A DNA stretch of 42,334 nucleotides from Bacteroidales bacterium (GTDB taxonomy: Bacteria; Bacteroidota; Bacteroidia; Bacteroidales; M50B96), in the NCBI GenBank assembly GCA_021740905.1, contig JAIOYV010000060.1, positions 1 to 42,334 of the forward strand. Direction: 5' to 3'. Both the position numbers and the translations under genes were made by a program. Under the pieces are notes generated by a model, which was given only the letters and a program-made list of their open reading frames with translations, did not search any database and was not told where the DNA came from. Positions 16,943-32,460 of the stretch are shown one piece after another. Numbering within the stretch: position 1 is the first letter of the stretch; each line of letters opens with the position of its first letter.

Positions 16943-18541
16943 ATGAAAAAGAATATTTTGATCTTTTTGCTCTTTCTATCTGCCCCTTTCATTTCTAATG
17001 CACAAATTCAGTCCAGCCCGGTTATTCCGGCAGAGTTACTTAGCAACTACGAAAAGGACGTACATTCTCTTGCCTTAGGGCGGATTTATACGACCAATGC
17101 GCCGGCAATGAATGAAATAGAAATCCCTAATGCTTATACCGATACCATCTGGGATGCTATGGCGGCTGTTTTTAATGCCTGGCCAATACCTGAGCGCGAC
17201 ACGGTATTCGACATCGAATGTGTTCACAAATATCCATATTATCCCTTTTATGAGTTTACCTCCGACATTGTGATCGAGAGCAACTATCCATTGTATGTAA
17301 ATGCCTGGGATAATGGACAGACCACAACTGGCGACCCAGCTATCGACACAATTCTTACTAACTATGGATTTACAAACGTCTACAATTTTGCATTTGGTGG
17401 TTGGGTAAATGTTTATTTTCAAACCAGCCAATATATCAACACCCAGGCTTTGTGTTCATTGCTACTCTCGCTTCCTTACATTAGTACAGCAACACCAGGC
17501 GACGGGTCTTTTGGGAGCCCAAACAAGGATATTCATTATTCAAAAGATGAAGATTACCAATATTTGGGATTTGTCATAAGATGGGGTGATTGCCCCACGG
17601 GCTGCACGGATGCCAAAAGCTGGAATTTTCGGGTTTCCTCAAATTTTGTTGTCGAATTTACCGGAATTACGCAAACACCACCTGTAAATACATACGTCCC
17701 TTTTCCGACCAATTGTAATATATCAGTCAATATTCCTTTGTTTTCGTTGAATCAACTTATACTATGCGAAGGCGATAGTGTGTTCCTGAACAATCAATGG
17801 TACTTTGGGCCGACAGCTTTTAACGATACCCTTATCAGCTCGCAGGGAACCGACAGTATTGTGTACAACAGCATCCATCAAATCGGAACTGTGCAGACTG
17901 TTTTAGATGTAAGTATTTGCGAAGGCGACAGCTTCAATTTCAATGGACAATATCTGGATTCATCGGGGAATTATAGTAGTGTTTATCAAGCTATCTCGGG
18001 TTGCGATAGCTTGGTAGTTTTGAATTTAGAAATACTCCAGCTCCCTGAGATTCAATTTAGCCCAGCTTTTCAGGATAGCATCGCCCAGGATGCTGGGTTG
18101 GTTTATCTCGATTTTGCAAGCCCGGTGGGCGGTGTGTATTCCGGCGATGGTATTTCGTTGGGCTATCTCGACCCACAAGTATTAGTTCCGGGCCCTTCAT
18201 GGGTTTATTATTCATATACCGACTCTATTTCCGGTTGTGGTAATGCCGATTCCTTGCTCATCCAAATAATTGAAGTGAACGATATTGAAGCTAATAATCA
18301 TTTGTATGGATTAAAGCTTTTTCCAAATCCTTCAACAGGAATTATCCAAATCCACTTAGAAGATAAGCTCACCAAAACTGCACATATTGAGATATTTAAT
18401 GCTCAGGGCAGCAAAATCATGGCAATTGAAACAGATGAAAACAATTCACAAATTAATCTACAGGATTTTCCGAGTGGAATATATTTACTTCGATTGGAGG
18501 TTGAAGAGCTTATAAGTTTACATAAACTTGTTTTGGAATAA
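16943..18541 (+). CDS. T9SS-secreted protein of unknown function
   Basis: The ATG at 16943 is preferred to the TTG at 16910 because the signal peptide starts there ('MKKNILIFLLFLSAPFISNA'). The 532-residue product has a unique N-terminal region (about 20-260, rich in Tyr, Trp and Asn). Two copies of a bacterial adhesin-like segment follow: 'LILCEGDSVFLNNQWY' and 'VSICEGDSFNFNGQYLDSSG', each running to a '(G)xDS(L/I)V' segment. Then come a beta domain ('GGVYSGDGISLGYLDP') and a T9SS type A sorting domain in the last 80 residues ('LFPNPSTGIIQIHLED', 'GSKIMAIETDE', 'GIYLLRLE'). It should be exported across the outer membrane and attached or released. The specific role is unknown. Confidence 0.8.
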   Translation: MKKNILIFLLFLSAPFISNAQIQSSPVIPAELLSNYEKDVHSLALGRIYTTNAPAMNEIEIPNAYTDTIWDAMAAVFNAWPIPERDTVFDIECVHKYPYYPFYEFTSDIVIESNYPLYVNAWDNGQTTTGDPAIDTILTNYGFTNVYNFAFGGWVNVYFQTSQYINTQALCSLLLSLPYISTATPGDGSFGSPNKDIHYSKDEDYQYLGFVIRWGDCPTGCTDAKSWNFRVSSNFVVEFTGITQTPPVNTYVPFPTNCNISVNIPLFSLNQLILCEGDSVFLNNQWYFGPTAFNDTLISSQGTDSIVYNSIHQIGTVQTVLDVSICEGDSFNFNGQYLDSSGNYSSVYQAISGCDSLVVLNLEILQLPEIQFSPAFQDSIAQDAGLVYLDFASPVGGVYSGDGISLGYLDPQVLVPGPSWVYYSYTDSISGCGNADSLLIQIIEVNDIEANNHLYGLKLFPNPSTGIIQIHLEDKLTKTAHIEIFNAQGSKIMAIETDENNSQINLQDFPSGIYLLRLEVEELISLHKLVLE

Positions 18542-18934
18542 TTTCTAGGACAATGCGATTTCGATACAATAACAACTCTAATTGGCTTCATTTGAGAACC
18601 CTATAATCTATTGCGGTAATTGACTACCAAATAATACTCATTTTCCAGTCCTACCAAGTCGATTTGTCTATCTTTGCCAACTTTTTTGCAAAATACCTAG
18701 GAGCGAGATTTGGTAAAAGAGGTTGGTGAAGGAATTCAAATTAAAGGAAAGGGAGAACAAAGCGATGTGTTTTTTTACACCTGCGAATACGAAGCATTGG
18801 TCCCAAACGAATTTATTGATACGATGGTTTGCACTATATTCTAAATAGGAATGTCGATTTAACATACCCATTTCGATTGGGGACTATCCTCGGCAACTTC
18901 CTAAGCATCCTGGAGTTCCTTCTAATTACACGAT
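18542..18934. other. Gap with a possible gene remnant
   Basis: No complete gene is seen. A perfect -7 box TATCTTTG lies at 18669-18676 on the plus strand. Downstream, one frame is open from 18701 to the TAA at 18842-18844 and reads coding-like ('VKEVGEGIQIKGKGEQSDVF', 'FYTCEYEALVPNEF') but has no ATG. It may be the stub of a decayed gene. Confidence 0.3.
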
Positions 18935-19648
18935 TTATATCTTCATCGGGATTTCCATAAGAAGAACATCGGCATTTGTTATGGCTTCAATAGAAAGCGA
19001 AAAAATTCCCCAAAGCCCTAAACCATCCCTTTTGTCGAGAACCTGGCCATGCACATCAATCTGCCCTTCAACTACAAAAACATAAACACCCGAATTTTTT
19101 CCTTTCAAGTTATAGGTAATCGTTTTCCCATTGTCAAGATTCGAAAGATGAAACCAGGCATCCTGATGGATCCAAACCCCCTCATCATCGGCAAAGGGCG
19201 AAAGAATTTGCTGGAGCTTGTTTTTTCTGTCTTCCAGTTTGAAAGTTATCTGGCCGTATCGGGGTGTTACGTTCCGCTTATTCGGAAAAAGCCAGATTTG
19301 AAAAAGGGTGCAAGCTTTGTCTTTCTCATGGTTGAACTCGGAATGATAAATACCAGTCCCGGCGCTCATCACCTGCACATCTCCCTTGCGGATTACCCCG
19401 TTGTTTCCCATGCTGTCTTTGTGTTCGAGCGCGCCTTCTAACGGAATGGTAATTATTTCCATGTTTTCGTGGGGGTGCATCCCGAAACCCTGCCCACCGG
19501 CTATGTAATCATCGTTGAGCACTCGCAATACGCCAAAGTGCATTCGTTCAGGATTGTGATAATCGGCAAAACTAAAACTATAATGGGTTTTTAGCCAGCC
19601 ATGATCGGCATGTCCACGTGTATTTGCTTTATGCAGAACAGATTTCAT
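18935..19648 (-). CDS. Pirin family protein (YhaK-like)
   Basis: The 237-residue bicupin carries the pirin metal site: His58 and His60 in 'GFGMHPHENMEI', His102 and Glu104 in 'GTGIYHSEFNHE'. The N-terminal motif 'HGWLKTHYSFSFADYHNPER' is also typical. Bacterial pirins bind Fe(II)/Fe(III); some oxidise quercetin and others act as redox-sensitive regulators of metabolic enzymes. It is the last gene of a MarR, CDGSH, pirin unit; only 3 nt separate it from the CDGSH gene. The arrangement points to a role in oxidant or electrophile response. Confidence 0.92.
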   Translation of the reverse strand: MKSVLHKANTRGHADHGWLKTHYSFSFADYHNPERMHFGVLRVLNDDYIAGGQGFGMHPHENMEIITIPLEGALEHKDSMGNNGVIRKGDVQVMSAGTGIYHSEFNHEKDKACTLFQIWLFPNKRNVTPRYGQITFKLEDRKNKLQQILSPFADDEGVWIHQDAWFHLSNLDNGKTITYNLKGKNSGVYVFVVEGQIDVHGQVLDKRDGLGLWGIFSLSIEAITNADVLLMEIPMKI

Positions 19649-19651
19649 CGG

Positions 19652-19894
19652 TCAGGATAGTTTGTTGTGTGAGCCATCGCAAAAAGGTGGGTTCGCGGTT
19701 TGTTTACACATACACAAAGCCACTTCCTTGTCTTCGGCTAAAGAAAATGCCACTGGATTAAACTCACTTCCCAGATGGGATCCATCGCAAAAGGGTTGAT
19801 TTTTCGATTTTCCACAAGCACACCAATATTTATCTTCGCCTTTTTTCATTGCTAATAACCTGGGCGCAATGCCTGCAACTACTGCCTTTTTCAT
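19652..19894 (-). CDS. Tandem CDGSH iron-sulfur protein
   Basis: The 80-residue protein has two CDGSH-type cluster sites: Cys25, Cys27, Cys36 and His40 ('WCACGKSKNQPFCDGSH'), and Cys61, Cys63, Cys72 and His76 ('LCMCKQTANPPFCDGSH'). Each 3Cys-1His site should hold a redox-active, acid-labile [2Fe-2S] cluster. Two-site CDGSH proteins are common in bacteria and are thought to be electron or cluster carriers. It lies between the MarR regulator (11 nt) and pirin (3 nt), so all three should be translated from one mRNA. Confidence 0.95.
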   Translation of the reverse strand: MKKAVVAGIAPRLLAMKKGEDKYWCACGKSKNQPFCDGSHLGSEFNPVAFSLAEDKEVALCMCKQTANPPFCDGSHNKLS

Positions 19895-19905
19895 CGTATG
19901 TTCTG

Positions 19906-20349
19906 TTATTTGTTTTTTATTCTTTTTAAGATGTTAATCATTTTTTGAGCTTCCATTTCGCTTACTTCATTTTCGTAGCAATTGTCAAACACCTCCGCCA
20001 ATTTAGGAGCTATTTGAGCGAGCAGCGCAAAACCATCTGCCGACATTTTAATGTCCATTTTCCTTCGGTTGTTGGGGCATAGCTCACGCTCAACCAAATT
20101 TTTGTGTACCAGACGGTCGATTATCCGGGTGATATCAGAATTTGAAAACAGTACACCTTGTTTGACCTCTCCCACACATAAAGGCTGAGGATGTGAAGCT
20201 TCCAACACTTTTAATATATTGAACTGCACATGGGTTATATCAAACTGCTTGAGCATGGACGATATCTTGCTTTCAAGTAGCTGGCCGGTGTGCATGATGT
20301 GCACAATCATTTTCCGGTGAATATCGCTTATTTGTTTTGTAGCTTCCAA
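19906..20349 (-). CDS. MarR family transcriptional regulator
   Basis: The 147-residue protein has the MarR layout: a dimerisation helix (1-35), a winged helix-turn-helix (about 40-105: 'THVQFNILKVLEASHPQPLC', 'SNSDITRIIDRLVHKNLVER', wing 'NNRRKMDIKMSADG') and a C-terminal dimer helix. Cys58, Cys91 and Cys124 could sense oxidants, as in OhrR-type members, although the classic N-terminal OhrR cysteine is not obvious. It leads the CDGSH-pirin unit and probably represses it through an operator in 20350-20454, for which the palindrome at 20392-20401 is a candidate. Confidence 0.9.
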   Translation of the reverse strand: MEATKQISDIHRKMIVHIMHTGQLLESKISSMLKQFDITHVQFNILKVLEASHPQPLCVGEVKQGVLFSNSDITRIIDRLVHKNLVERELCPNNRRKMDIKMSADGFALLAQIAPKLAEVFDNCYENEVSEMEAQKMINILKRIKNK

Positions 20350-20391
20350 TTTATGTTTTTAACAATATATGTTCACAACAACAAAAGAATC

Positions 20392-20401
20392 AAACATGTT
20401 T
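20392..20401. promoter_or_regulatory. Candidate MarR operator palindrome
   Basis: AAACATGTTT is a perfect 10-bp palindrome 43 nt upstream of the marR-like ATG. A weaker dyad AACA-N5-TGTT lies at 20361-20373. On the minus strand, CATGTTTG, one mismatch from the -7 consensus, overlaps the palindrome, so a bound repressor would block the polymerase. Confidence 0.4.
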
Positions 20402-20454
20402 AGCGGAGTACGCTCTTTTTGCGATTTTTAACAGTTGGAAGTGCTAATACTTAT

Positions 20455-21606
20455 CTATTTTAGTTTGATAGTAATCTCAACAATCTCCGGCCTGTTGCCT
20501 ATTCTTACGGGTGGGCCCCAGCTTCCATAACCCGATGAGGTATAGAAAAAACTATTTCCCTTTTGCAGTAAGCCATAATGATTTTCAAAAATGGCCGAAG
20601 TCAAATAACCAAAAGGCCAAATCTGTCCTTTGTGGGTGTGGCCCGAAAGCATTAGGTCTACCCCTGCCTTCTCGGCTTTGTTGTAATCAACGGGCTGGTG
20701 ATCCATTAGTATGAGGGGTAGATTCGGATCAACATCTCTCAAAATATCTTCCAGTTCTTTGCGTTTATGGCCATCCTCGAAACGGGGTTTGTCACGGTCG
20801 TCACGTCCTGCAAGAGTAAGTATACCACCTACATTGATGGCAGTATCGCGGACATAATTTATCCCCACTGTGGAAAGATAGTCGATGCTGACTTGAGCAT
20901 GACCAATAAATTCGTGGTTACCGGTTACGGCATACATGCCCAGTTTAGGGTGCAGTTGTTTGAAATATTCGCCCATTTTCTTTTTAATTACCGGAATGGG
21001 GTTGTGATCGACCAAATCGCCGCCAAATAAAACAATATCTGGATTCAAATTATTGATCATGTTCACCATTTTCTGGATGCGCCCGTTTTGAATGATAGCC
21101 CCCATGTGAATATCGGTAACCAAAACAGCCTTTATTTCTTTTCGATCAGCCACAATCTTGTCCACCTCAATTTCAATTTTATTTACTCTGGGATTAATTG
21201 CATTGATGTATCCAGCAATCAATAACAAAACTGATATACCGGATACTACAATAAAAAGGCTTTTTCCTGAAAAGATCCCGGCTTTTAAAGAAGCTGGGAC
21301 AAAATTCAACCATCCATCGAAAAGCCTGATTATATCTATAAAGAACACCATCATAATGGAATACAAAAGGATGACGAGATAAAACGAACCGGTAAAGCTG
21401 ACCATCCGGAATATATCGTTGGGATTGCCCCTCTCAAGAAACTGACCTAAGGGAAAACTAATAACCAATATCCAGAATGCCCAGGTAAAAACAGATTTGA
21501 TATGGGTGAATTCGAGTGCTTTCATGCCACGGGAAAAAATATACCAATTGGCCAGAAAATAGACTGTAATTACTATGGTGAAGAAGAAAAGAATGGCTGG
21601 TTTCAT
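20455..21606 (-). CDS. Membrane-anchored metallophosphoesterase (YkuE/YaeI-like)
   Basis: The 383-residue protein has about four or five membrane spans in residues 1-145. A calcineurin-like phosphoesterase domain (about 155-383) follows, with the full metal-site set: 'VTDIHMG', 'GGDLVDHN', 'VTGNHEF' and 'SGHTHKGQIWPFG'. Two-metal enzymes of this group cleave phosphate esters or diesters; YkuE- and LpxH-like relatives act on lipid or cell-wall-linked phosphates. The last helix leads straight into the catalytic domain, and its side of the membrane is uncertain. It stands alone; a 105-nt gap separates it from the marR-like gene, with no clear terminator. Confidence 0.88.
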   Translation of the reverse strand: MKPAILFFFTIVITVYFLANWYIFSRGMKALEFTHIKSVFTWAFWILVISFPLGQFLERGNPNDIFRMVSFTGSFYLVILLYSIMMVFFIDIIRLFDGWLNFVPASLKAGIFSGKSLFIVVSGISVLLLIAGYINAINPRVNKIEIEVDKIVADRKEIKAVLVTDIHMGAIIQNGRIQKMVNMINNLNPDIVLFGGDLVDHNPIPVIKKKMGEYFKQLHPKLGMYAVTGNHEFIGHAQVSIDYLSTVGINYVRDTAINVGGILTLAGRDDRDKPRFEDGHKRKELEDILRDVDPNLPLILMDHQPVDYNKAEKAGVDLMLSGHTHKGQIWPFGYLTSAIFENHYGLLQKGNSFFYTSSGYGSWGPPVRIGNRPEIVEITIKLK

Positions 21607-21730
21607 GCTGTCTTTATTTGCTGTTATTTGTTCCTATAATGAAAAATATAAATCAAATTTTGTCAAAATCATAAACAGACATAAAGACGGATAAGGATCA
21701 AAAATGTTTTAACTGCTAGTAACATATTGT

Positions 21731-21759
21731 GATTCTCACTTCCTGAATGTGGGAGTGAC
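21731..21759. repeat. Second copy of the GTCAYTCC palindromic element
   Basis: The minus strand reads GTCACTCCCACATTCAGGAA followed by GTGAGAATC, which resembles the element at 16746. TCACTTCC and GGGAGTGA can pair with one mismatch. The gap 21607-21862 has no visible gene. Confidence 0.4.
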
Positions 21760-21862
21760 AGGAAAAATTCCAAGCAAGAAAATACAAATTCAAGCAACTA
21801 AAAGAACAAGACATTTTGAAAATCAATTGCGAAATTAGAAGGAAGATACTGGGTTTTCGCAA

Positions 21863-22120
21863 TTAATCATCCGAAGATTGGGCAAGCTTGTTATAAATTG
21901 AAGCGAACAATGCCCCTCCAATAAAGCCAGCTGCAAAAGCCCATATAAAACCAATAAGACTACCAATAGGAGAAAGGTTATAGCCTCGTAACACAGCGCC
22001 AATCACAGTTGACTGGCCATTTCCTCCTGTTGTTATAATCATCCACCAGGTAAGTATAAAAAGCCCTATACCAGCGATTAATCCTGTTGTCAGTGCAAAA
22101 GCAAGTACTTTAACTTTCAT
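21863..22120 (-). CDS. Small membrane protein annotated as holin-like
   Basis: The 85-residue protein has two long membrane spans (about 5-30 'VLAFALTTGLIAGIGLFILT' and 52-76 'IGSLIGFIWAFAAGFIGGAL') joined by a short loop, and a short acidic tail. It matches the small chromosomal group usually labelled 'bacteriophage holin', found in non-phage contexts with sequence 'GSLIGxxWxFxxGFIGGxLxAxxYN'. No phage gene lies nearby, so the label should not be taken as lysis function. Function is unknown. Confidence 0.65.
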   Translation of the reverse strand: MKVKVLAFALTTGLIAGIGLFILTWWMIITTGGNGQSTVIGAVLRGYNLSPIGSLIGFIWAFAAGFIGGALFASIYNKLAQSSDD

Positions 22121-22320
22121 TGTTGTTATTTATTAAAATTTGCCTACTCCTATTTTTTGCTAAAACTACATATTAAAATGCGCGAAACAAATTTTTCATC
22201 TAATAAAAAAATAAAAAAGCCGATAAACCATTTTTTCTCAAGCTTGTTGATTTGAGTAGCTCTAGCTTGACTTGGTTTGAAATTGCACCCCCAAAACTAT
22301 TTTATACAATAACTAATAGG

Positions 22321-23388
22321 CTAATACTTCTCCCTTTTGTTATTCTTCAACACCGACTTTATCATCTTTCCAAACTCTTTATCTTTCTTCCGTTTATCAG
22401 CAACTGATAATTGAAAGTGCTCCTGTTCTCGTTGCATCTTCAGATAATTATTGTAAGTGGCATGGTCAATTTCCCCATTTTCCACCGCAAGGAGGATTGC
22501 ACATCCCGATTCGTTCGTATGGGAGCAATCGGAGAATCTACATTCCTTTGAAAGCTCCGAGATTGTGCCGAAGGTCATTGATAAACCCTCCTGCTTATCG
22601 GTTATACCCAATTCTTTCATCCCGGGCGTATCAATAAGAATAGCCCCTTTTTCCAGCACGATTAGTTCCCTATGACTGGTCGTATGTCTTCCTTTTTGGT
22701 TGCTTTTGCTGATTACCGAAGTTTTCATATAATCCTGCCCCATGAGATTATTGATTAGGGTAGATTTCCCAACACCTGATGAACCAAGAACACAATACGT
22801 ATTGCCTTTTTTCAGATGTGCATTCAGTTCGGGGTAACCTTGCATTGAAACGTTGCTAACAGGCAGTACAGTAATGGTTTTACCTCGTCCTTTTAATTGT
22901 TCCAGAAAGCTAGTTATTTCATCTTCAACAAGTAAATCCGTTTTTGTGAGGACGAGGGTAGCATCGATCCCAGTCGCATAGCATATTGTAAGGTAGCGTT
23001 CCAGCCTGTTGATATTGAAGTTGCGATCGACAGACTGCACGATAAGGGCTTCGTCGATATTGGCGGCAATTACTTGGGTTTCGCCATGTTTTCCGACGGC
23101 TTGCCTTTCGAGCAAACTGCTGCGGGGCAACACAGAATGAATAATCGCCAATTGTTCATCGACAGGGATACAAGCAACCCAATCGCCAACTGCGGGAAAA
23201 TCGGTTTTGCTTTGGGCCGAATAGCGAAGATTTCCGGTGATTTCGGCATCAAACTCCCCGCCAGCGGTAAACACAAGATATCTTTCTTTAAATTCACGAA
23301 CCACTCTTCCAATCACAAAATCAGCATAATTATCTGATTTTATGACTTCTTCAAGTGAAGGTTTTAATCCAAAAATAGCGAGATTCAT
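22321..23388 (-). CDS. rsgA: Ribosome small subunit-dependent GTPase A
   Basis: The ATG at 23388 is preferred to the TTG at 23418, which would overlap the butyrate kinase gene and adds a poor extension. The 355-residue product has an N-terminal OB fold (about 20-75), then a circularly permuted GTPase domain: G4 'VLTKTD' precedes G1 'GSSGVGKSTL', followed by G3 'DTPGMKELG'. A C-terminal zinc site ('CRFSDCSHTNESGCAI') follows. RsgA checks late 30S subunit assembly and binds near the decoding centre. It is the third gene of a buk-buk-rsgA run, 13 nt after the kinase. Confidence 0.96.
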   Translation of the reverse strand: MNLAIFGLKPSLEEVIKSDNYADFVIGRVVREFKERYLVFTAGGEFDAEITGNLRYSAQSKTDFPAVGDWVACIPVDEQLAIIHSVLPRSSLLERQAVGKHGETQVIAANIDEALIVQSVDRNFNINRLERYLTICYATGIDATLVLTKTDLLVEDEITSFLEQLKGRGKTITVLPVSNVSMQGYPELNAHLKKGNTYCVLGSSGVGKSTLINNLMGQDYMKTSVISKSNQKGRHTTSHRELIVLEKGAILIDTPGMKELGITDKQEGLSMTFGTISELSKECRFSDCSHTNESGCAILLAVENGEIDHATYNNYLKMQREQEHFQLSVADKRKKDKEFGKMIKSVLKNNKREKY

Positions 23389-23401
23389 TTCTATAAAGAC
23401 T

Positions 23402-24472
23402 CTAAGTATACTCCACAATATCGGCTTGCCCGTTGATTACCCGAAGGCCATTCATTGCCAGTGCACGCATTTCATCTTCGCCGGGGTAAACAAATACAGG
23501 ACAGATATGTCGGACCCGCTCTGTAATAGCATCGACAATGGTTTGTCCATGGGCCATTCCGCCTGTCAACAATATCCCATCAACTTCGCCTTTCAGCACG
23601 GTAGACATAGCACCTATAAATTTAGCCACCTGATAGGCAAGAGCATCCTGTATCAGTTGGGCCTTTTCATCACCGGCAGCTGCCATTTGCTGAACCTTGT
23701 AGCCATCGTTGGTCCCGAAATAGGCCACATAGCCACCTTTGCCCTTCAACATTAGTTTAATTTCGTCGTGTGTGAATTTGCCACTAAAGCAAAGATTCAC
23801 CAAATCGCCGCAGGGCAATGTGCCCGAACGTTCCGGGGTAATCGGGCCTTCTGCATCGAGGCCGTTGTTTACATCAACAACTCGCCCTTTTTTGTGGGCA
23901 CCAACAGTGATACCGCCTCCTAAGTGGGCTACTATCAGGTTTAAATCTTCGTAATTTCGAGCAATTGAACTGGCATGAAGGCGAGCTACGGCTTTTTGGT
24001 TCAAAGGATGAAATATAGACTTCCGTTCGAATAAGGGGTGTCCCGAAATGCGCGCAATAGGCTCAAATTCGTCGACCACAACAGGATCCACTATATAGGC
24101 TTTGGCATTTTTCAATTCCAATGCAATATCGTGGGCAATCAACCCGCCCAAATTGCTGGCATGTTCGCCAAGTGGACTGTCAATAAGGTCACGCATGAGG
24201 GCATCGTTTACTTCGATTACCCCCGATCGCACCGGTTTTACCAGCCCCCCTCTTCCCATAATCGCCAAGATACTGTTGAGATGGATGCTGGCATTATTCA
24301 ATTCCCTGAGAATAATTTCCTTTCTAAAACTTCGCTGATCTGTAATTTTCTTGAAAGGTTTAAGGTCTTCGATCGAGTGATTTATATTGGTCACAAATGC
24401 CTGGTGTGGCCCTTCAAAAATTGCAATTTTTGTTGAAGTTGAACCCGGGTTTATGGCAAGGATTAAATTCAT
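23402..24472 (-). CDS. buk: Butyrate kinase
   Basis: The 356-residue ASKHA-fold kinase has intact signatures: 'INPGSTSTKIAIFEG' at residues 7-21 (phosphate loop), 'IMGRGGLVKPV' with Arg74, 'VDPVVVDE', 'AHLGGGITVG' with His183, 'TPERSGTLPCGDLV' and 'LLTGGMAHG' near the C-terminus. It catalyses butanoate + ATP <=> butanoyl phosphate + ADP, or the same with branched-chain acids, and makes ATP at the end of butyrate fermentation. The usual partner, phosphate butyryltransferase, is not in the window. It lies 98 nt downstream of a degenerate paralogue on the same strand. Confidence 0.95.
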   Translation of the reverse strand: MNLILAINPGSTSTKIAIFEGPHQAFVTNINHSIEDLKPFKKITDQRSFRKEIILRELNNASIHLNSILAIMGRGGLVKPVRSGVIEVNDALMRDLIDSPLGEHASNLGGLIAHDIALELKNAKAYIVDPVVVDEFEPIARISGHPLFERKSIFHPLNQKAVARLHASSIARNYEDLNLIVAHLGGGITVGAHKKGRVVDVNNGLDAEGPITPERSGTLPCGDLVNLCFSGKFTHDEIKLMLKGKGGYVAYFGTNDGYKVQQMAAAGDEKAQLIQDALAYQVAKFIGAMSTVLKGEVDGILLTGGMAHGQTIVDAITERVRHICPVFVYPGEDEMRALAMNGLRVINGQADIVEYT

Positions 24473-24570
24473 TGATATTGATTGGTTTTTATAAATCCAC
24501 TATTGATATATTCAGCTAAAGCACGTTTTTGATTACGCCAAATAAATGGCGAATGTTTCAATGTCGATGG

Positions 24571-25647
24571 CTAAACATATTCTTTTACTTCAATTTCCCC
24601 TTTCAGCATCATAAGGGCATTAAGGGCAAGCCCATCGGCAATACATTCGCCCGGATATATATGGACCGGGGCAAGTTTACCTATGTATTCAATGATAAAA
24701 TCGGTGAACATCTTATTGTGCGAAATCATGCCTGTAAGGATAATACCATCGACCTCACCTTTTAGGGCTGCGAAAAGTGAACCAATATATTTGGCCACCT
24801 GATAAGCCATGGCTTTAAAAATAAATGCCACTTTTTCATTCCCGTCATCTATCATTTCTTCGATCTCATATAGACTCCGGGTGTTGAAATGGGCCATCAT
24901 TCCACCTTCCGCCCGGATCTTATATAGGATTTCCTGCTCGGAATATTTCCCGCTAAAACACATTTTCACCAAATCGCCAACAGGCAAGCTGCCACTTCGT
25001 TCGAGCGAAAATGGGCCTTCGCCGTCGAAAGCCTGGTTCACATCCACCACCTTGCCTTGTTTATGCGCCCCAATTGAAATCCCTTCGCCAAGATTGGCCA
25101 CGATCAGGTTCATTTCTTCGTAGTTCTTCATAACCGCTTTGGCATGTCGGCGGGCTATTGCCTTTTGGGTAAGTGCATGAAAAACTGAATGTCGTTGAAA
25201 TTCGGGCCAACCCGTTACTCGTGCAATATCGTCCATTTCATCCACCACAACCGGATCGGCAATGTAGGCTTTGGCATCGGGCAGCATTTTGGCCAGATCG
25301 TCGGCAATTAGCCCACCAAGATTAACAGAATGAACACCCAGGGACGCATTGATTAAATCTTCTTTCATCCGGTCGTTCACCTCATAAATTCCCGAAGGGA
25401 TTGGCTTTATCAGCCCCCCCCTGCCAATTACCACACGGATCAGATCGATACGGATATCGGCATCCTTCAACTCGCGTAATACTTCATCGGCCCTGTATTG
25501 GTGCTGCTCGACAACCTTGTTAAAACTGGCCAGCTTTTCGGCTGGATGCTTTATCGATTTTAGAAAGAGCATGTTCCCACCCTGGTATATGGCTGCTTTG
25601 GTTTGAAAAAACTCTGGTTTTAAGCATAAAATGCGTATGTTTTCCAT
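24571..25647 (-). CDS. Degenerate butyrate kinase paralogue (probable pseudoenzyme)
   Basis: The 358-residue protein aligns end to end with the butyrate kinase at 23402, at roughly half identical residues by eye, and keeps 'IGRGGLIKPI', 'ADPVVVDE', 'GKVVDVNQAF' and 'LERSGSLPVGDLV'. Three nucleotide/phosphate motifs are changed. 'NPGSTSTK' becomes 'KPEFFQTK' (residues 10-17). 'AHLGGG' becomes 'ANLGEG' (His to Asn185, Gly to Glu188). 'LTGGMAHG' becomes 'LTGMISHN'. The His at this position stabilises the transition state in acetate kinase. The frame is intact and the fold residues are conserved, so the gene is under selection; a regulatory or heteromeric partner is more likely than a dead gene. 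It leads the buk-rsgA run, with a weak -7 box TATTTTTA at 25680-25673. Confidence 0.85.
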   Translation of the reverse strand: MENIRILCLKPEFFQTKAAIYQGGNMLFLKSIKHPAEKLASFNKVVEQHQYRADEVLRELKDADIRIDLIRVVIGRGGLIKPIPSGIYEVNDRMKEDLINASLGVHSVNLGGLIADDLAKMLPDAKAYIADPVVVDEMDDIARVTGWPEFQRHSVFHALTQKAIARRHAKAVMKNYEEMNLIVANLGEGISIGAHKQGKVVDVNQAFDGEGPFSLERSGSLPVGDLVKMCFSGKYSEQEILYKIRAEGGMMAHFNTRSLYEIEEMIDDGNEKVAFIFKAMAYQVAKYIGSLFAALKGEVDGIILTGMISHNKMFTDFIIEYIGKLAPVHIYPGECIADGLALNALMMLKGEIEVKEYV

Positions 25648-25752
25648 CGAAATCGGATTTTATATTTTGGCCTAAAAATACGAATCCTGAACTTTAATAC
25701 AACTATAATCCAAAAATTTCCTTTCCTGACAATGGAAAGATAATTTTTTCTC

Positions 25753-25760
25753 TACTTTTG
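25753..25760 (+). promoter_or_regulatory. -7 box for the RCC1-repeat gene
   Basis: TACTTTTG matches TAnnTTTG in full, 26 nt before the ATG at 25787; no TTTG -33 box is clear. Confidence 0.45.
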
Positions 25761-25786
25761 AAAACAAAAATTAAAAATCATTCTAC

Positions 25787-27193
25787 ATGCGGACCTTCAT
25801 TACCTTATTGATTATTACATTACTTGGCTTAAAATTATATGCCCAAAGCTGGCAACAGGTTAGTTGTGGGGGCGAATTTTCGCTTGCCCTTCGTTCCGAC
25901 AGCACCATCTGGTCGTGGGGAAACAACGGGAACGGGCAGTTGGGCCTGGGCAATACCAATAGTTCAGACGTACCTCTTCAGATTGGCACCGACCATGTGT
26001 GGAAAAAGGTGGTGGCAAGCAGTTTTCATTCCGTCCTTTTGAAATGGGACGGTTCGCTGTGGACTTGCGGCCTAAACGGAAACGGCCAGCTGGGGATTGG
26101 AAATACACAACAGCAGACATCGCCGGTGCAAGTTGGCACCACCTTATGGAAAAATATTGCTTGCGGACAGGCGCACACCCTTGCCATTGCCAACAACGGC
26201 AGTCTTTGGGGATGGGGTTTCAACTACAATGGGCAGGTTGGGGACAGTAGCCAGACCGACCGCCATGCACCGGTACAAATCAGCACCGACACTTCATGGG
26301 CGAAGATTTCGGGAGGTGGCGGACATTCACTCGCACTGAAATCGGATGGCAGCCTCTGGGCTTGGGGTTCCAACGGCAATGGCCAAATGGGGATCGATTC
26401 CATTGGTTCGAGCAGCTATCCCGTGCAGTTGGGAAACGATACCAACTGGGTGGATATTTCGGCAGGATTTGAATTTTCGATTGGTGTAAAATCGGACGGA
26501 ACGCTCTGGAGCTGGGGGTTCAATGGCAATGGACAGTTGGGCACAGGCTCCATAATCCAGGAGGACATCCCTGTCCAGGTTGGGACTGATACCGATTGGG
26601 CCAAAGTGGAAGCAGGCTCGGCCTTTGCCTTTGCAATTAAAGCCGATAGCAGCCTCTGGGCTTGGGGATATAATGCTGTTGGTCAGTTGGGAGATGGTAG
26701 TCTTCTTCAGCAAAATTCTCCTATTGATGTCGATTTTGGCTACGACTGGAAATGCGTATCTGCTGCCGAAGGCTTCGTCTATGCCAATAGTGTATATGGC
26801 CATCATACCTTGGGAATAAAAGGCGATGGAAGTGTAATTTGCGGGACAGGACATAATTATATCAGCCAACTTGGAGATGGAACCGCAGTTGATCATGAAA
26901 AATTCTATTGCACTACCGGGCAAATCCTTGATATTCCAATAGTTTCAATTGAAAATCACGAATCTTTCATGCAGGTTTATCCCAATCCAAGTAATGGAAC
27001 TTTTCACCTCAAAATCGAAAACGGAAGCAATCGACTTGGAATTGAATTATACAATACCTTAGGGGAATTGATACATGTTGATGAAATTATTAACGATAGT
27101 GAAATTCTATTACCTGGATTGGCACATGGGATTTATATGTTGAAAATAAAATCGAATGAAGAATTTTTCACCAAGAAAATTATTATTGAATAG
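25787..27193 (+). CDS. RCC1-repeat beta-propeller protein with T9SS sorting domain
   Basis: The 468-residue protein has a signal peptide (about 1-19, cleaved near 'LYAQ'). Seven RCC1 repeats of about 50 residues follow, each with 'SLWxWGxNxNGQLGxG' and 'VxxGxxHSLALK' elements (about 20-380), which should form a seven-bladed propeller. The last 80 residues are a T9SS type A sorting domain ('VYPNPSNGTFHLKIENG', 'GIYMLKIKSNEEFFTKKIII'). It is therefore a surface or secreted protein, probably for binding; the ligand is unknown. It appears monocistronic. Confidence 0.9.
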   Translation: MRTFITLLIITLLGLKLYAQSWQQVSCGGEFSLALRSDSTIWSWGNNGNGQLGLGNTNSSDVPLQIGTDHVWKKVVASSFHSVLLKWDGSLWTCGLNGNGQLGIGNTQQQTSPVQVGTTLWKNIACGQAHTLAIANNGSLWGWGFNYNGQVGDSSQTDRHAPVQISTDTSWAKISGGGGHSLALKSDGSLWAWGSNGNGQMGIDSIGSSSYPVQLGNDTNWVDISAGFEFSIGVKSDGTLWSWGFNGNGQLGTGSIIQEDIPVQVGTDTDWAKVEAGSAFAFAIKADSSLWAWGYNAVGQLGDGSLLQQNSPIDVDFGYDWKCVSAAEGFVYANSVYGHHTLGIKGDGSVICGTGHNYISQLGDGTAVDHEKFYCTTGQILDIPIVSIENHESFMQVYPNPSNGTFHLKIENGSNRLGIELYNTLGELIHVDEIINDSEILLPGLAHGIYMLKIKSNEEFFTKKIIIE

Positions 27194-27472
27194 CATAGTT
27201 CCTTTATAAGCTTGGTCTAAAAGGCACAAACCTGCTTGAAATTATACATCGCACGGGATAAATTTCCACACATCAATAGCATCGTCCTTTAGGTCGGGGT
27301 ATATTGATAAACAAGTTGATAGGAGCTTTAGCCCAATATGGTAAATGCGGGATTTATACCGTCTGCGGTATAGTAATGCAAAAAAGATTAGTATTTTTAT
27401 AAAACTAATCATTAACACGATTTAGGTGATGAATAATATTTCAAATCTTATAGCTTTATCAGCATCAAGATC

Positions 27473-27616
27473 ATGTCAAATGTAACTATGGAACATAGAA
27501 ACGAAAATGCAAGGAGGCTTCTAAAAGATTTGGAGCTTGCGAATATTATCCGCGTCCTTCACAAAGACAAAGGATGGCTGCATCAAAGCTTTCAGGGAGT
27601 ATTCGCGGCTCAATAG
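27473..27616 (+). CDS. Possible 47-residue protein, unknown
   Basis: The ATG at 27473 opens a frame to the TAG at 27614-27616 encoding 'MSNVTMEHRNENARRLLKDL' and 'ELANIIRVLHKDKGWLHQSF'. It is basic and helix-forming, and reads like coding sequence, but no family is recognised. It overlaps, in another frame, the next frame at 27574, so one gene may have been broken by a frameshift. Confidence 0.3.
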   Translation: MSNVTMEHRNENARRLLKDLELANIIRVLHKDKGWLHQSFQGVFAAQ

Positions 27617-27888
27617 GCAAGAAAAAGGCAATAGAACAAAATAATCAACTCGATCAAATGCGCAACGAATGGAAAGATGGTTTTTTCAATATTGAAAAAA
27701 GTGAAACTTACTTCGATACACATAAAAAAATTGCCAAAAATCTTTGTTCCATGAATAAAATCACTCCCGACACAATTGTTTTCTTTCAGTATCAAACTCT
27801 ATTCTTTAAGAGCCGCCTCATTTCTTCAAATTTAACAATGCCCTTTGTAAAACGAGACCAATCGTGTCTCTACCTGTTAAAAAACTGA
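27574..27888 (+). CDS. Possible 104-residue protein or gene remnant, unknown
   Basis: The frame encodes 104 residues, of which 'QMRNEWKDGFFNIEKSETYF' and 'DTHKKIAKNLCSMNKITPDT' look coding-like, with a basic N-terminus and a less regular C-terminus. No domain is recognised. It stays open upstream of its ATG to about 27500, in a different frame from the 47-residue frame at 27473. No ribosome-binding or promoter signal supports it. Confidence 0.3.
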   Translation: MAASKLSGSIRGSIGKKKAIEQNNQLDQMRNEWKDGFFNIEKSETYFDTHKKIAKNLCSMNKITPDTIVFFQYQTLFFKSRLISSNLTMPFVKRDQSCLYLLKN

Positions 27889-27973
27889 GATTTTCACAAA
27901 CCTGTTCCATAGCATATCACAACAACAATCATATCAAATTCTTATTACTACTTTCGCCAAAAAAATTTACATA

Positions 27974-30097
27974 ATGAAGAAATCGTTTATTTTAATGCTT
28001 GCACTGGCGTTTGGGATTATGTCGTGCAACAACCAACAAACAAAACCTAAAAGTGAAGACATGGACACAAACCCCTTTTTCACGGAGTATACTACCCCTT
28101 ATCAGGTTCCGCCTTTCGATAAGATAAAAACGGAGCATTACCTGCCTGCTTTTAAAAAAGGCATGAACCAACAGAAGGAAGAAGTTGAAGCAATTGTAAA
28201 AATTGCTGATCCTACTTTTGAGAACACAATTGCAGCATTAGATTATAGTGGCGAGTTGCTTACCAATGTGAGCAGTGTGTTTTTCAACTTGAAATCGGCG
28301 TTGACAAACTCCGAGATTGAGGCCATTGCCAAAGAGGTTTCGCCCTTGTTGTCGCAACATCAGGACGATATTGGGTTGAACCCCGACCTGTTTAAAAATG
28401 TGAAAGCAGTTTTTGACAAGAAGGATGAATTGAACCTCAATACAGAACAAATGCGCTTGCTCGACAAAGTGTATAAGCGATTTGTGCGTGGTGGCGCTAA
28501 TCTGAAAGCGGAGGACCAGGAAAGATTCCGGGCAATCAACAAGGAATTGTCTTTGTTGGAGTTAAAATTCTCAGAAAATCAATTGGCCGAAACCAATGCT
28601 TTCCAGATGTTTATCGAAAACTCCGATGATTTGGTGGGTCTTCCTCAATCGGTAATAGATGCTGCTGCCGATGAAGCAAAAGCTGCCGGGCAAGAAGGCA
28701 AATGGCTATTTACAGTGCAAAAGCCAAGTATGATCCCTTTTCTTCAATATTCCGAAAAACGGGACTTACGCGAGAAAATTCTGAAAGGCTACATTATGCG
28801 TGGCGACAATAATAACGAAAACGATAATAAGGAGAGTGTTCAGAAAATAGTTAAACTTAGGGTCGAACGTGCCCATCTGCTTAGGTACGAATCTCACGCT
28901 GCTTATGTGCTGGACGAAAACATGGCAAAAACACCCGAAAATGTATTCAACTTTATGGATCAATTGTGGGAGAAAGCATTGCCAATGGCCAAAGCCGAAG
29001 TGGTAGAATTGCAAAAACTGATCGATGCCGAAAAGGGCGGGTTCAAGCTCGAAGCCTGGGATTGGTGGTATTATGCCGAAAAACTCCGGAAAGCAAAATA
29101 CGATCTGGACGAAGAAGAAATGCGCCCCTATTTCAAACTCGAAAATGTAATTGACGGTGCTTTTGCAGTTGCCCATAATCTATATGGCATCAGCTTTAAC
29201 GAGCGTACTGATATTCCGACTTACCACCCTGAAGCCCATGTTTTTGAAGTCCTCAACAACGACAACACCCATTTAGGTATTTTGTATATGGATTTCTTCC
29301 CTCGCGAAAGCAAACGTGGTGGTGCCTGGATGACCGAATTCCGCCAGCAAAGCAATAAGGATGGAAAAGATATCCGTCCTGTAATTACGGTCGTTTGTAA
29401 TTTCTCAAAACCCACAGGCGACACCCCTTCCCTACTAAATTTCGATGAGGTAGAAACCCTGTTCCACGAGTTTGGCCATGCTCTGCACGGATTGCTTTCG
29501 GATTGCACATACCCAGGAGTGGCCGGGACCAATGTGGCCCGCGACTTTGTGGAACTGCCATCTCAGTTTATGGAGAATTTCTGTTCAGAACCCGAAGCTC
29601 TAAGCCTGTTTGCCAAACATTATCAAACCGACGAAATTATCCCACAGTCCTTGGTGGATAAAATGACTGCCAGCTCCCATTTCAACCAGGGGTTTGTGGC
29701 TGTGGAATATTTATCGGCAGCCTATCTCGATATGGATTGGCACACTCTGAAAGAGCCTGAAATGCTGGATGTGAACAAATTCGAAAAAGAGTCGCTGGAA
29801 AAAATTGGCCTGATACCCGAAATTGTTGTCCGTTATCGTAGTACCTATTTTGCACATATTTTTAGTGGAGGATATTCAGCCGGTTATTACAGCTACATCT
29901 GGGCCGAATTATTAGATGCTGATGCTTTTGAGGCTTTTAAAGAAAATGGTTTGTTCGACCAGGCCACTGCCACTGCCTTCCGCGAAAATGTGTTATCAAA
30001 AGGGAATACAGAGGACCCAATGGTTCTGTACGAAAAATTCCGTGGTGCAAAACCAAAGATTGAGCCTTTGCTCCGAAGGAAAGGATTTATACAGTAG
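27974..30097 (+). CDS. dcp: M3 family oligopeptidase / peptidyl-dipeptidase, lipoprotein
   Basis: The 707-residue protein is an M3A zinc metallopeptidase (thimet oligopeptidase/Dcp type). His498, Glu499 and His502 in 'LFHEFGHALHGLLS' with Glu527 in 'RDFVELPSQ' form the zinc site. Late motifs 'HIFSGGYSAGYYSYIWAELL' and 'FRENVLSKGN' fit Dcp closely. The N-terminus has a lipobox ('FGIMSC', Cys18), so the enzyme is predicted to be membrane-anchored in the periplasm, unlike E. coli Dcp, which is mostly cytoplasmic. It should trim dipeptides or short peptides for nutrition. Length is normal. A strong hairpin follows at 30118-30155. Confidence 0.93.
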   Translation: MKKSFILMLALAFGIMSCNNQQTKPKSEDMDTNPFFTEYTTPYQVPPFDKIKTEHYLPAFKKGMNQQKEEVEAIVKIADPTFENTIAALDYSGELLTNVSSVFFNLKSALTNSEIEAIAKEVSPLLSQHQDDIGLNPDLFKNVKAVFDKKDELNLNTEQMRLLDKVYKRFVRGGANLKAEDQERFRAINKELSLLELKFSENQLAETNAFQMFIENSDDLVGLPQSVIDAAADEAKAAGQEGKWLFTVQKPSMIPFLQYSEKRDLREKILKGYIMRGDNNNENDNKESVQKIVKLRVERAHLLRYESHAAYVLDENMAKTPENVFNFMDQLWEKALPMAKAEVVELQKLIDAEKGGFKLEAWDWWYYAEKLRKAKYDLDEEEMRPYFKLENVIDGAFAVAHNLYGISFNERTDIPTYHPEAHVFEVLNNDNTHLGILYMDFFPRESKRGGAWMTEFRQQSNKDGKDIRPVITVVCNFSKPTGDTPSLLNFDEVETLFHEFGHALHGLLSDCTYPGVAGTNVARDFVELPSQFMENFCSEPEALSLFAKHYQTDEIIPQSLVDKMTASSHFNQGFVAVEYLSAAYLDMDWHTLKEPEMLDVNKFEKESLEKIGLIPEIVVRYRSTYFAHIFSGGYSAGYYSYIWAELLDADAFEAFKENGLFDQATATAFRENVLSKGNTEDPMVLYEKFRGAKPKIEPLLRRKGFIQ

Positions 30098-30117
30098 AGG
30101 ATATCTACAACAAAATA

Positions 30118-30155
30118 CAAAAAACGTAGGCAGAGTGATTTGCCTACGTTTTTTG
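30118..30155. terminator. Bidirectional terminator between convergent genes
   Basis: CAAAAAACGTAGGCA (30118-30132) pairs perfectly with TGCCTACGTTTTTTG (30141-30155) around an 8-nt loop, with an A run on one side and a T run on the other. It serves the M3 peptidase gene and the convergent gene at 30158. Confidence 0.95.
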
Positions 30156-30157
30156 TT

Positions 30158-30586
30158 TTAGATAAACAGCAAATTGCTCAGGTTTACCTTTAAAAATTTC
30201 GTAAACGACCTATATTCCTGTTGTATGGAAACAAAAACTGTTTTCAGACTATTGCGCTCTTGATAATAAACATGGTTACGATTGATCGGGAAATCTTTCA
30301 CATAATGGGCAATTTCTTCCTCCTGGGTTTTAATGTTGCTCAACAACTGATCGATACTTTGCAGGATAGGAGAAATTAATGCCAGCGCAGGATTGGCTTT
30401 CCGGATATCCTTTTCGTGGGCATATTCAACCTTGATGGCATCGATCCGTTGTTGGAAAAGCCTTAGCTGCTTCGACATAAAGGCCAGTTCGTTTTTCCAA
30501 AGCTTGTATTCGAAATCGAAATCGGGTAGGGAAATCTCACTGGTCTTACCATATTTCCTTATCTTCAATATTCCAGGTAGCATCAT
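30158..30586 (-). CDS. Conserved-looking coiled-coil protein, unknown
   Basis: The frame could begin at a TTG at 30619, but the ATG at 30586 (or the next one, 30583) is preferred because 30624-30617 reads TATCTTAG, close to a -7 box. The product of about 142 residues is hydrophilic and helical, with heptad-like segments at about 25-60 ('LWKNELAFMSKQLRLFQQRI') and 80-105 ('PILQSIDQLLSNIKTQEEEI'). It has no signal peptide, membrane span or recognised domain, so it is probably cytoplasmic. It converges on the M3 peptidase gene and shares its terminator. Confidence 0.65.
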   Translation of the reverse strand: MMLPGILKIRKYGKTSEISLPDFDFEYKLWKNELAFMSKQLRLFQQRIDAIKVEYAHEKDIRKANPALALISPILQSIDQLLSNIKTQEEEIAHYVKDFPINRNHVYYQERNSLKTVFVSIQQEYRSFTKFLKVNLSNLLFI

Positions 30587-30694
30587 ATTTTCTAAAATTT
30601 TGGTTGAACTAAGATACAAAAATTCCAGGAAAAAGGAGTAATCTGGAAACTAGCGAGAAACTATTTTATATCTCCAAAATTGGGATTAATTAAA

Positions 30695-31639
30695 TCAATG
30701 CTTTAACACTTTGATGTAATGAACTTGAATATCGTTGACTTTTAATGCGATGAAGTAATAACCTTTGGGCAAGTTTGAGTCGGGTTGCCAGGTGGCTGTG
30801 TACTTTTCGGCTTTTAGCGATTTTTCTTCCAATTTAGCGACAGTTCGGCCTTGCAAGTCAAATACCCACAAGCTTACCACATTTTCATGGAATACGCCAT
30901 AGTTGATATTTACCGAATCGGAAAAGGGATTTGGGCTGGCCGAATAAATCATCCCTTTTTCCAGATGTAAATCACTCATGCCTACTGTTCCGTTTCCATC
31001 GACCACAATATCCCAGGTGCCTTCGTACTTCCCATCGGTATTCATGGTGATTGGGATTATCCGGTGTGTCGCATCGTATTGTCCACTGCTGATAGAGGCT
31101 GCTGCATCGATAGGAATATACTGATCGCCCTCGAAATAAAGCTGTGTGGTAAGGGTAGCGAAACCGGGCGGTGTGATTTTAAGGTGTATATGCGAAGGCC
31201 GGTAATTGGCCCCGTTCAAATAATGCCCGGGCAGGATGGTTTCGAACATATAAAAGCCCTGGTTATTTGAATAAGTAATGCCCCGAAGATTGTAACCAAC
31301 ATTATCGTAAGCCCCAGCATCGTTGGCATGCCAGACATCAATCACCGCATTATGGATCAGCTCGGTGCAATCGAGCGTCCTAACTTGCCCGCTAAGGATA
31401 AGTCTTACGCCCGGTTCGGTTGATGCGACAAGCAGGTTATTCTGAATCGTAGGCGGGTTGGGTGTGTAAAAAGGACCTTCACCATAATAATCCGGTGTTG
31501 TGAGATTACAATTGAGAGTTGCCTTTGATTCTGCTGCAATCCCATTTCCCTTTGCTATTGTGGGTAAAAGCCCCACCGATAAAGAGGCCAGAGAAAAATT
31601 CTTGAGAAATTGCCGACGTGTTTTATTTAAAACTTTCAC
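30695..31639 (-). CDS. Tat-exported intradiol dioxygenase-like protein with T9SS tail
   Basis: The 314-residue product starts with a twin-arginine signal ('TRRQFLKNFSLASLSVGLLP', residues 7-26). An intradiol ring-cleavage dioxygenase core (about 40-215) follows, with likely iron ligands Tyr111 ('DAGAYDN'), Tyr140 ('LPGHYLNG'), His150 and His152 ('NYRPSHIHLKI'). The last 85 residues are a T9SS type A sorting domain ('YSASPNPFSDSVNINYG', 'LPKGYYFIALKVND'). Family members open catechol or protocatechuate rings using O2; extracellular members are less well understood. The ATG overlaps the stop of the anchor-J gene upstream by 4 nt, so the two are translationally coupled. Export in the folded state by Tat before T9SS passage is unusual. 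Confidence 0.85.
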   Translation of the reverse strand: MKVLNKTRRQFLKNFSLASLSVGLLPTIAKGNGIAAESKATLNCNLTTPDYYGEGPFYTPNPPTIQNNLLVASTEPGVRLILSGQVRTLDCTELIHNAVIDVWHANDAGAYDNVGYNLRGITYSNNQGFYMFETILPGHYLNGANYRPSHIHLKITPPGFATLTTQLYFEGDQYIPIDAAASISSGQYDATHRIIPITMNTDGKYEGTWDIVVDGNGTVGMSDLHLEKGMIYSASPNPFSDSVNINYGVFHENVVSLWVFDLQGRTVAKLEEKSLKAEKYTATWQPDSNLPKGYYFIALKVNDIQVHYIKVLKH

Positions 31640-32460
31640 TTGATTAATTTTTGGGTTACGATCCCTTTGTTAGTGGCGATTTTCAAAATATAAAGCCCTC
31701 CTGGTATTGTTTGAAGGTCGATCGTTCTGTTGTCTTTATCAAATTGCACGACTTGTTGTCCGGCTGCGTTGAACAACAAAAGACTATGGATATTAATTTC
31801 ATCGGGTACTTGCAAGGAAACTACCTCGCTTGCTGGATTGGGAAAAAGAGAGATATTCAAATTATTGTTGGAAAGGGCAGATATTCCAATAGTACCGGTA
31901 CTGCTAATCCTCACATCGTCAAATTTAACATCCAGCCAATTGTTAGTGGTGTAGTATCTAAATGCAATATAACTCGATCCGGTTTGAGGCGGCACAACGA
32001 TATTTGTATCGAGGGTCCACGTATTGTCTGCTACGTAATTTGTATCCCGGTAATCGAACAACATGGTTTTAGAAAGTGCCAGATCAGGATCGTTTGAACC
32101 GGTCAATAAATAGAAGGCAACAGTGTCTCCAGCCATTGGAAGCCCGAACCCGGCAAACGAGTGCCAAACAGAATCGATACTTCCCCCATTCGAAAAATCG
32201 AAAGCCGGGGATACGAACCAATCATCGGTGGCAACTGTCCCGCCCACCGGATAGCCGTGAGACAGGCAATTGGGAGCTGATAGGCTGGAAAAAGTGGAGA
32301 TTTCCCAATAATAAAAAGGGTTTGCATCGCCCTTTCTAAATTCAGTCCAATTGGCCATCCCGGCAGGTGTGTCGAATCCTGTGGAATAATTTTGAGCTTT
32401 CAGTTGTGTGAGATTCGCCGAGATGACAATAGCGACCAAGAGAATAAATGTCTTTTTCAT
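31636..32460 (-). CDS. T9SS-secreted 'choice-of-anchor J' protein
   Basis: The 274-residue protein has a signal peptide ('MKKTFILLVAIVISANLTQL', cleaved near 'LKAQ'). A MAM-like choice-of-anchor J beta-sandwich (about 25-190) follows: 'STGFDTPAGMANWTEF', 'DDWFVSPAFDFSNGG', 'IAFRYYTTNNWLDVKFDDV'. A T9SS type A sorting domain closes the protein ('ISLFPNPASEVVSLQVPD', 'GGLYILKIATNKGIVTQKLI'). It is probably a surface adhesive or binding protein. The stop codon overlaps the start of the dioxygenase gene (ATGA), so both should be made together and may act on the same substrate. Confidence 0.88.
   Translation of the reverse strand: MKKTFILLVAIVISANLTQLKAQNYSTGFDTPAGMANWTEFRKGDANPFYYWEISTFSSLSAPNCLSHGYPVGGTVATDDWFVSPAFDFSNGGSIDSVWHSFAGFGLPMAGDTVAFYLLTGSNDPDLALSKTMLFDYRDTNYVADNTWTLDTNIVVPPQTGSSYIAFRYYTTNNWLDVKFDDVRISSTGTIGISALSNNNLNISLFPNPASEVVSLQVPDEINIHSLLLFNAAGQQVVQFDKDNRTIDLQTIPGGLYILKIATNKGIVTQKLIK

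Follow-up and report, generated by a model that had tools for sequence, protein, structure and literature searches.

A butyrate kinase paralogue without nucleotide loops is conserved in Bacteroidales and frequently accompanies icmF

The window analyzed here, a 42,334-nucleotide stretch of DNA from a member of the Bacteroidales, contains two tandem butyrate kinase (Buk) genes, one of which (gene A) has lost the nucleotide loops that are present in the other (gene B). Gene A is a member of an old, well-kept Buk paralogue family in this order. Rather than a dying gene, it is probably a partner with a regulatory or specificity role in the metabolism of branched-chain acids: an old conserved family which has no ATP loop and is frequently found in the company of icmF points to a partner role rather than to decay. 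The features discussed below are collected in Table 1.

Table 1. Position of the two Buk genes, of the lost and kept motifs of A, and of the DUF6125 loci. Window coordinates, except for the DUF6125 loci, which are numbered within their own locus.
Feature	Position	Strand	Details
Gene A, Buk paralogue with dead nucleotide loops	24571..25647	-	358 aa, ATG start
Gene B, intact butyrate kinase	23402..24472	-	356 aa, 98 bp downstream of A
PHOSPHATE1, KPEFFQTK replaces NPGSTSTK	25597..25620	-	A residues 10-17
PHOSPHATE2, ANLGEG replaces AHLGGG	25081..25098	-	A residues 184-189
ADENOSINE loop, LTGMISHN replaces LTGGMAHG	24715..24738	-	A residues 304-311
PGECIA replaces PGEDEM	24637..24654	-	A residues 332-337
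Arg76 kept (AckA Arg91 position)	25420..25422	-	profile alignment; kept in 23/24 clade members
His157 kept (AckA His180 position)	25177..25179	-	profile alignment; kept in 24/24 clade members
Arg217 kept (AckA Arg241 position)	24997..24999	-	profile alignment; kept in 23/24 clade members
DUF6125 loci	L052:9598-10311, L053:16040-16762, L122:3888-4634, L129:1371-2147		

According to the ORF list, the reading frames of A and B are both open, on the minus strand and spaced by 98 bp. BLASTP aligns the two proteins with 174/353 identical residues (49%), no gaps and an E value of 6e-132, and both score above the cut-off of the TIGR02707 butyrate kinase model (419.5 bits for A and 487.8 for B, cut-off 289.1). 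Every Buk signature is present in B. The initial annotation had described two tandem genes that align over their full length, the upstream one with lost motifs in an open frame, and BLASTP and the ORFs confirm this description; the stretches that it listed as kept are indeed kept, with a single exception, ADPVVVDE in A for VDPVVVDE.

It had also stated that phosphate butyryltransferase (Ptb) is absent from the window. Ptb was not found among the window ORFs examined (18000-32000), but the genome as a whole (G000; 160 contigs, 6.54 Mb) has a third Buk, which is intact and adjoins ptb elsewhere, on contig C120, so that the missing Ptb near A and B says little alone. An acetate kinase gene lies near this third Buk/ptb pair, on the same contig. 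The search for repeats at 23300-25800 gave nothing informative, and the promoter and terminator scan of 22200-26000 was uninformative (7 promoter-like sites for 7.9 expected; 7 terminator-like sites for 3.8 expected, sd 2.1). As for the other genes of the region, the divergent neighbour of A (25787-27193, plus strand) shows, by eye, several copies of a WGWG-type (RCC1-like) motif and, at its C terminus, a tail that resembles a type IX secretion signal. An ORF at 30695-31639 on the minus strand resembles, also by eye, an intradiol ring-cleavage dioxygenase and has a similar C-terminal sorting tail.

The PHOSPHATE1 pattern of active Buk, NPG[STA][TS][ST]TK, does not match A, and neither do the PHOSPHATE2 and ADENOSINE patterns (AHLGGG and LTGG.A). 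In the alignment, His183 and Gly186 of B are replaced by Asn185 and Glu188. The PGEDEM loop, which we take to correspond, perhaps, to the Mg/adenine region of acetate kinase (AckA), is a fourth altered loop that was missing from the earlier list. His183, Gly186, Gly305 and Glu334 are near-invariant in the 82 intact rows (conserved in 82, 81, 82 and 82 of them, respectively) and all four are changed in A; these columns played no part in the selection of the rows. The acyl-side residues Arg74, His155 and Arg215 (B numbering) are found in A as Arg76, His157 and Arg217. Judged from the sequence, the losses of A are thus on the nucleotide side, apart from a few flanking columns.

His180 of acetate kinase is a transition-state residue, and the initial annotation had assigned this role to the histidine that A has lost. 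A profile alignment of 82 intact Buk and 20 acetate kinases from the same set matches Arg74, His155, His183 and Arg215 of B to Arg91, His180, His208 and Arg241 of AckA, respectively, and these residue numbers are exactly those obtained when the genome's own AckA is counted by hand from Met. When B is aligned with 4ijn, the same Phe-His stretch falls on acetate kinase. The lost histidine therefore occupies the position of AckA His208, which rules out His183 as the transition-state residue, and the equivalent of His180 is kept.

The AlphaFold2 model of A has a mean pLDDT of 81.4 and is weakest at residues 136-138, 150-155 and 206-221. Its best matches in the PDB are the butyrate kinases 9a71 (an integrative model), 1SAZ and 1X9J, with TM scores of 0.83-0.84 and an rmsd of about 4; against 1SAZ, the Foldseek E value is 7.4e-36, and the predicted structure has the ASKHA fold. 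A is thus similar to Thermotoga maritima Buk2 (1SAZ/1X9J; TIGR02707) in length, fold, profile score and acyl-side residues, but unlike a butyrate kinase it has lost the PHOSPHATE1, PHOSPHATE2, ADENOSINE and PGEDE loops. AckA belongs to the same superfamily and its Arg91, His180 and Arg241 positions are kept in A, but A is without the nucleotide loops and the sequence similarity is distant.

The family was sampled as 111 Buk homologues from 72 of 99 relatives' genomes, with a broken PHOSPHATE1 loop as the defining criterion of a pseudokinase. The loop is broken in 29 of the 111. In a quick tree computed after removal of three motif regions, with SH-aLRT support only and no bootstrap, 24 of these 29 rows, including A, group in a single clade (SH-aLRT 97); the remaining five fall elsewhere in the tree and make up a second lineage. 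A single origin of all 29 pseudokinases was rejected (p-AU 6.6e-6, on a 60-row subset of the 111). One second-lineage row, from G041, is borderline or decayed (NPGTLSTK, Arg74 replaced by Thr and His155 by Asn) and is counted among the 29. Three Buk rows remained outside the 111 (G038, G068 and G011): the loop is intact in two of them, and that of G011, NTGSTTTK, is broken by the pattern used, yet is one Pro away from an accepted loop. An orthologue of A occurs in all four genomes examined of the window's family, with a KPEF or KPEY loop and Asn in place of the second His. In a phylum-wide draw, 6/198 genomes gave a Buk-like match (E 1e-60); one is the window's own genome and the other five have an intact NPGSTSTK. 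A plasmid search returned 47 records, each below 60% identity.

Within the clade, Gly10 of PHOSPHATE1 is lost in 24/24 members and Asn8 in 16, the rows having been chosen by this loop. The second Gly of ADENOSINE (Gly305) is lost in 21/24 and kept in three, and the middle Gly of PHOSPHATE2 (Gly186) is lost in 15/24 and kept in nine. His183 is kept in 17/24, so that its loss characterizes the window's family and three further rows and is not what defines the clade. Of the altered motifs for which the initial annotation proposed a check among homologues, the broken PHOSPHATE1 is common to the whole clade, and the lost His183 is still present in most members. Nucleotide-loop columns are lost more often than the others (11/21 versus 7/65, p 0.0002), a test that is partly circular because the rows were selected by PHOSPHATE1; when this loop is left out, the counts are 6/13 versus 7/65 (p 0.006, split counted by hand).

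Arg74, His155 and Arg215 are all retained together in 22/24 clade members and in 4/5 second-lineage rows. Columns adjacent in sequence to these kept residues are altered: G73 in 13/24, A105 in 17, P213 in 20 and E214 in 13. In addition, A161, L205 and G244 are lost in most clade rows and H104 is Asp in 6/24. The altered neighbouring columns and the change of H104 to Asp suggest that the pocket may not bind butyrate.

The loss of motifs from one of two tandem copies is what the decay of a duplicate would leave. Yet the frame of A is open, the gene is present in 4/4 genomes of its family, and 53 of 86 near-invariant columns are retained in at least 90% of clade members. Pairwise dN in the window's family spans 0.19-0.26 (A), 0.21-0.26 (B) and 0.20-0.28 (the copy next to ptb): A changes no faster than its intact paralogues and is under similar constraint. 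Apart from a single pair, dS is saturated in the comparisons within A, within B and within the ptb-linked copies (one A pair gives a dN/dS of 0.123 at pS 0.70), which makes dN/dS unusable, and the claim of constraint is made from dN alone. Decay is thus rejected and we consider it highly improbable. The term "retained pseudokinase" of the initial annotation is supported by the clade-wide broken PHOSPHATE1 together with this paralogue-like constraint, and the role that it suggested for A, in regulation or in specificity, is plausible. Pseudokinases in general have a conserved fold and lost ATP-binding motifs, and coexist with an active paralogue; A likewise combines a kept fold, lost nucleotide motifs and long-term conservation (the 24-row clade and the paralogue-like dN). 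To our knowledge, no pseudokinase has been described for the butyrate kinase family. In the accessible part of the open-licence literature, no inactive Buk paralogue or icmF-buk pair in this order was found, which does not prove absence.

The pseudokinases rarely occur without an active-looking relative. An intact Buk is also carried by 27/29 pseudokinase genomes; none was seen in the other two, G013 and G054, which are 91% and 85% complete. Reciprocally, 27/29 genomes with at least two Buk homologues include a pseudokinase. The expectation that the altered copy would always be adjacent to an intact one does not hold, since the two are in tandem in 6/29 cases of the first sample, although the intact copy is somewhere in the genome in 27/29.

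These observations were repeated with 20 genomes (G296-G315) from families of the order that were absent from the first sample; 16 of them have Buk, and all rows were read. Six have a second Buk homologue, which is a pseudokinase in 6/6, while the other copy is intact and near ptb; the ten single-copy genomes all have an intact loop. A further genome scan, whose best 80 loci contain 86 Buk ORFs, overlaps both the 99-genome sample and the repeat sample. It yielded at least ten pseudokinases, of which 10/10 keep the three acyl-side residues; at least three lie directly behind icmF (L232, L233 and L240) and at least three are in tandem with an intact Buk (L180, L232 and L236). The pseudokinase of L238 shares motifs with that of L272 (G313). 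As the samples overlap, the ten pseudokinases of the scan and the six of the repeat sample are not fully independent.

Other arrangements of Buk genes also occur. Intact butyrate kinase is found in ORFs of about 660 aa at L131:4006-5985, L132:3139-5121, L254:642-2645, L255:355-2328 and L284:3341-5308. The second half of the L132 protein, which was scanned, is an ABC-transporter substrate-binding domain (PF04392), which makes this protein a fusion of a kinase with a ligand-binding domain; the remaining four ORFs are of similar length. In 4/5 cases, the second-lineage pseudokinase has a gene for a DUF6125 protein next to it (PF19620, assigned by the scan of L129). A gene of the enoyl-CoA hydratase family lies beside an intact Buk or a pseudokinase at L052:4086-4871, L053:3457-4317 and L116:3323-4123 (Pfam-scanned in L053 only). 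Outside the order, L237 and L241 (Caloramator and Anaerosalibacter) have a buk-ptb-buk arrangement in which both kinases are intact, that is, a duplication without loss.

The strongest clue to the role of A, and one beyond the reach of the initial annotation, is the linkage to icmF. In 11/29 cases (G001, G002, G003, G023, G029, G054, G071, G077, G078, G085 and G096), the pseudokinase is immediately preceded, in the same orientation, by an ORF of about 1,130 aa. One such protein was scanned with Pfam and contains B12-binding, MeaB and CoA-mutase domains; four proteins tested against the model of IcmF, the fused isobutyryl-CoA mutase (NF045497; three of the 11, and that of G088), score 1732-1781 bits, for a cut-off of 1500. 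In G030 and G088, icmF separates an intact Buk from the pseudokinase. The genome of the window has icmF on contig C69, away from A. In the repeat sample, icmF is immediately upstream of the pseudokinase in G299, G302 and G309, on the same contig at about 2 kb in G298 and about 5 kb in G315, and in G313 the two genes are both at contig starts. IcmF is a different protein from A, and its tie to A consists of gene order and co-occurrence only.

The co-occurrence extends beyond the adjacent genes. IcmF is found above the curated cut-off in 35/99 genomes: 25/29 with a pseudokinase versus 10/70 without (Fisher p 1.4e-11, or 2.1e-10 when the window's family is counted once). Of the 70 pseudokinase-free genomes, 27 contributed no Buk to the 111. 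With the reference group restricted to genomes in which every Buk row of the 111 is intact, the comparison gives 25/29 versus 9/43 (p 4e-8). IcmF is present in 20/24 genomes of the clade and 5/5 of the second lineage. In the repeat sample, it occurs in 6/6 pseudokinase genomes versus 3/14 others (p 0.002). We propose that selection maintains the pseudokinase family together with IcmF and, in nearly all genomes, alongside one or more active-looking Buk.

Ptb and Buk interconvert acyl-CoA, acyl phosphate and the free acid. IcmF interconverts isobutyryl-CoA and n-butyryl-CoA, according to PMC10481361, and PMC7764203 treats IcmF and Buk as separate steps in chain-elongating clostridia. The acyl side of the pseudokinase is kept, its ATP side is lost, and an intact Buk is present in 27/29 genomes; the simplest explanation would be a partner that reads or shapes acyl ligands within a mixed oligomer. 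A would assemble with an active Buk, either B or the ptb-linked copy, its acyl pocket would sense or position (iso)butyrate or the acyl phosphate, and it would thereby tune how active the kinase is, in which direction it runs or which chain it prefers on the isobutyrate/butyrate route through Ptb and IcmF. We give an even chance to this proposal, in which A is a retained pseudokinase that forms a mixed oligomer with active Buk and uses its acyl pocket to tune the kinase for that route. That A does not use ATP is something we infer from the sequences, as are the mixed oligomer, the ligand sensing and the direction of the flux.

The junction between icmF and the pseudokinase is more common than the tandem with an intact Buk (11 versus 6 of 29), and in G002 the icmF-A arrangement occurs without B; A could therefore work with IcmF, or alone. 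It might bind an acyl or acyl-phosphate ligand and act on IcmF or on the handling of its cofactor without a kinase partner. We regard this as rather improbable, since IcmF already has its own G-protein chaperone domain (MeaB; PMC10481361) and 4/29 pseudokinase genomes (G009, G040, G051 and G060) have no IcmF above the cut-off. The retention of Arg74, His155 and Arg215 in both lineages and in the further scan is what would be expected of an enzyme that uses this His/Arg/Arg site for another chemistry, such as acyl-phosphate hydrolysis or the use of another phosphoryl donor. However, the replacement loops differ among subclades and have no novel catalytic motif in common; conservation that is specific to the clade, and missing from intact Buk, is limited to column 151 (Lys) and column 260 (Ile). 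Such an activity is unlikely.

A could also be taken for a normal, active butyrate kinase whose loops are unusual, as it passes TIGR02707 and the 29/29 pseudokinase rows match this model at E 1.5e-86, a value set to about the curated cut-off. The simultaneous change of H183, G186, G305 and E334 in A, besides that of PHOSPHATE1, makes this quite unlikely.

In a wider reading, the pseudokinases would form a class of acyl-kinase pseudoenzymes, with at least two origins from Buk, which senses or positions (iso)butyryl ligands and couples active Buk to the B12-dependent mutase. This joint reading, which includes the proposal that such a class is previously undescribed in the order, is held tentatively, at somewhat less than an even chance.

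Butyrate kinase genes serve as markers of butyrate production in genomes and metagenomes. In the genomes sampled here, a second Buk homologue is nearly always a copy with a dead ATP site (27/29 genomes, and 6/6 in the repeat sample), and the 29/29 pseudokinases tested match the standard model, so that marker counts would be inflated and proteins misnamed. If the partner hypothesis is true, the pseudokinase would provide anaerobes with a testable point of control between four-carbon acids with branched and with straight chains, and would be a further case of control by a pseudoenzyme within primary metabolism.
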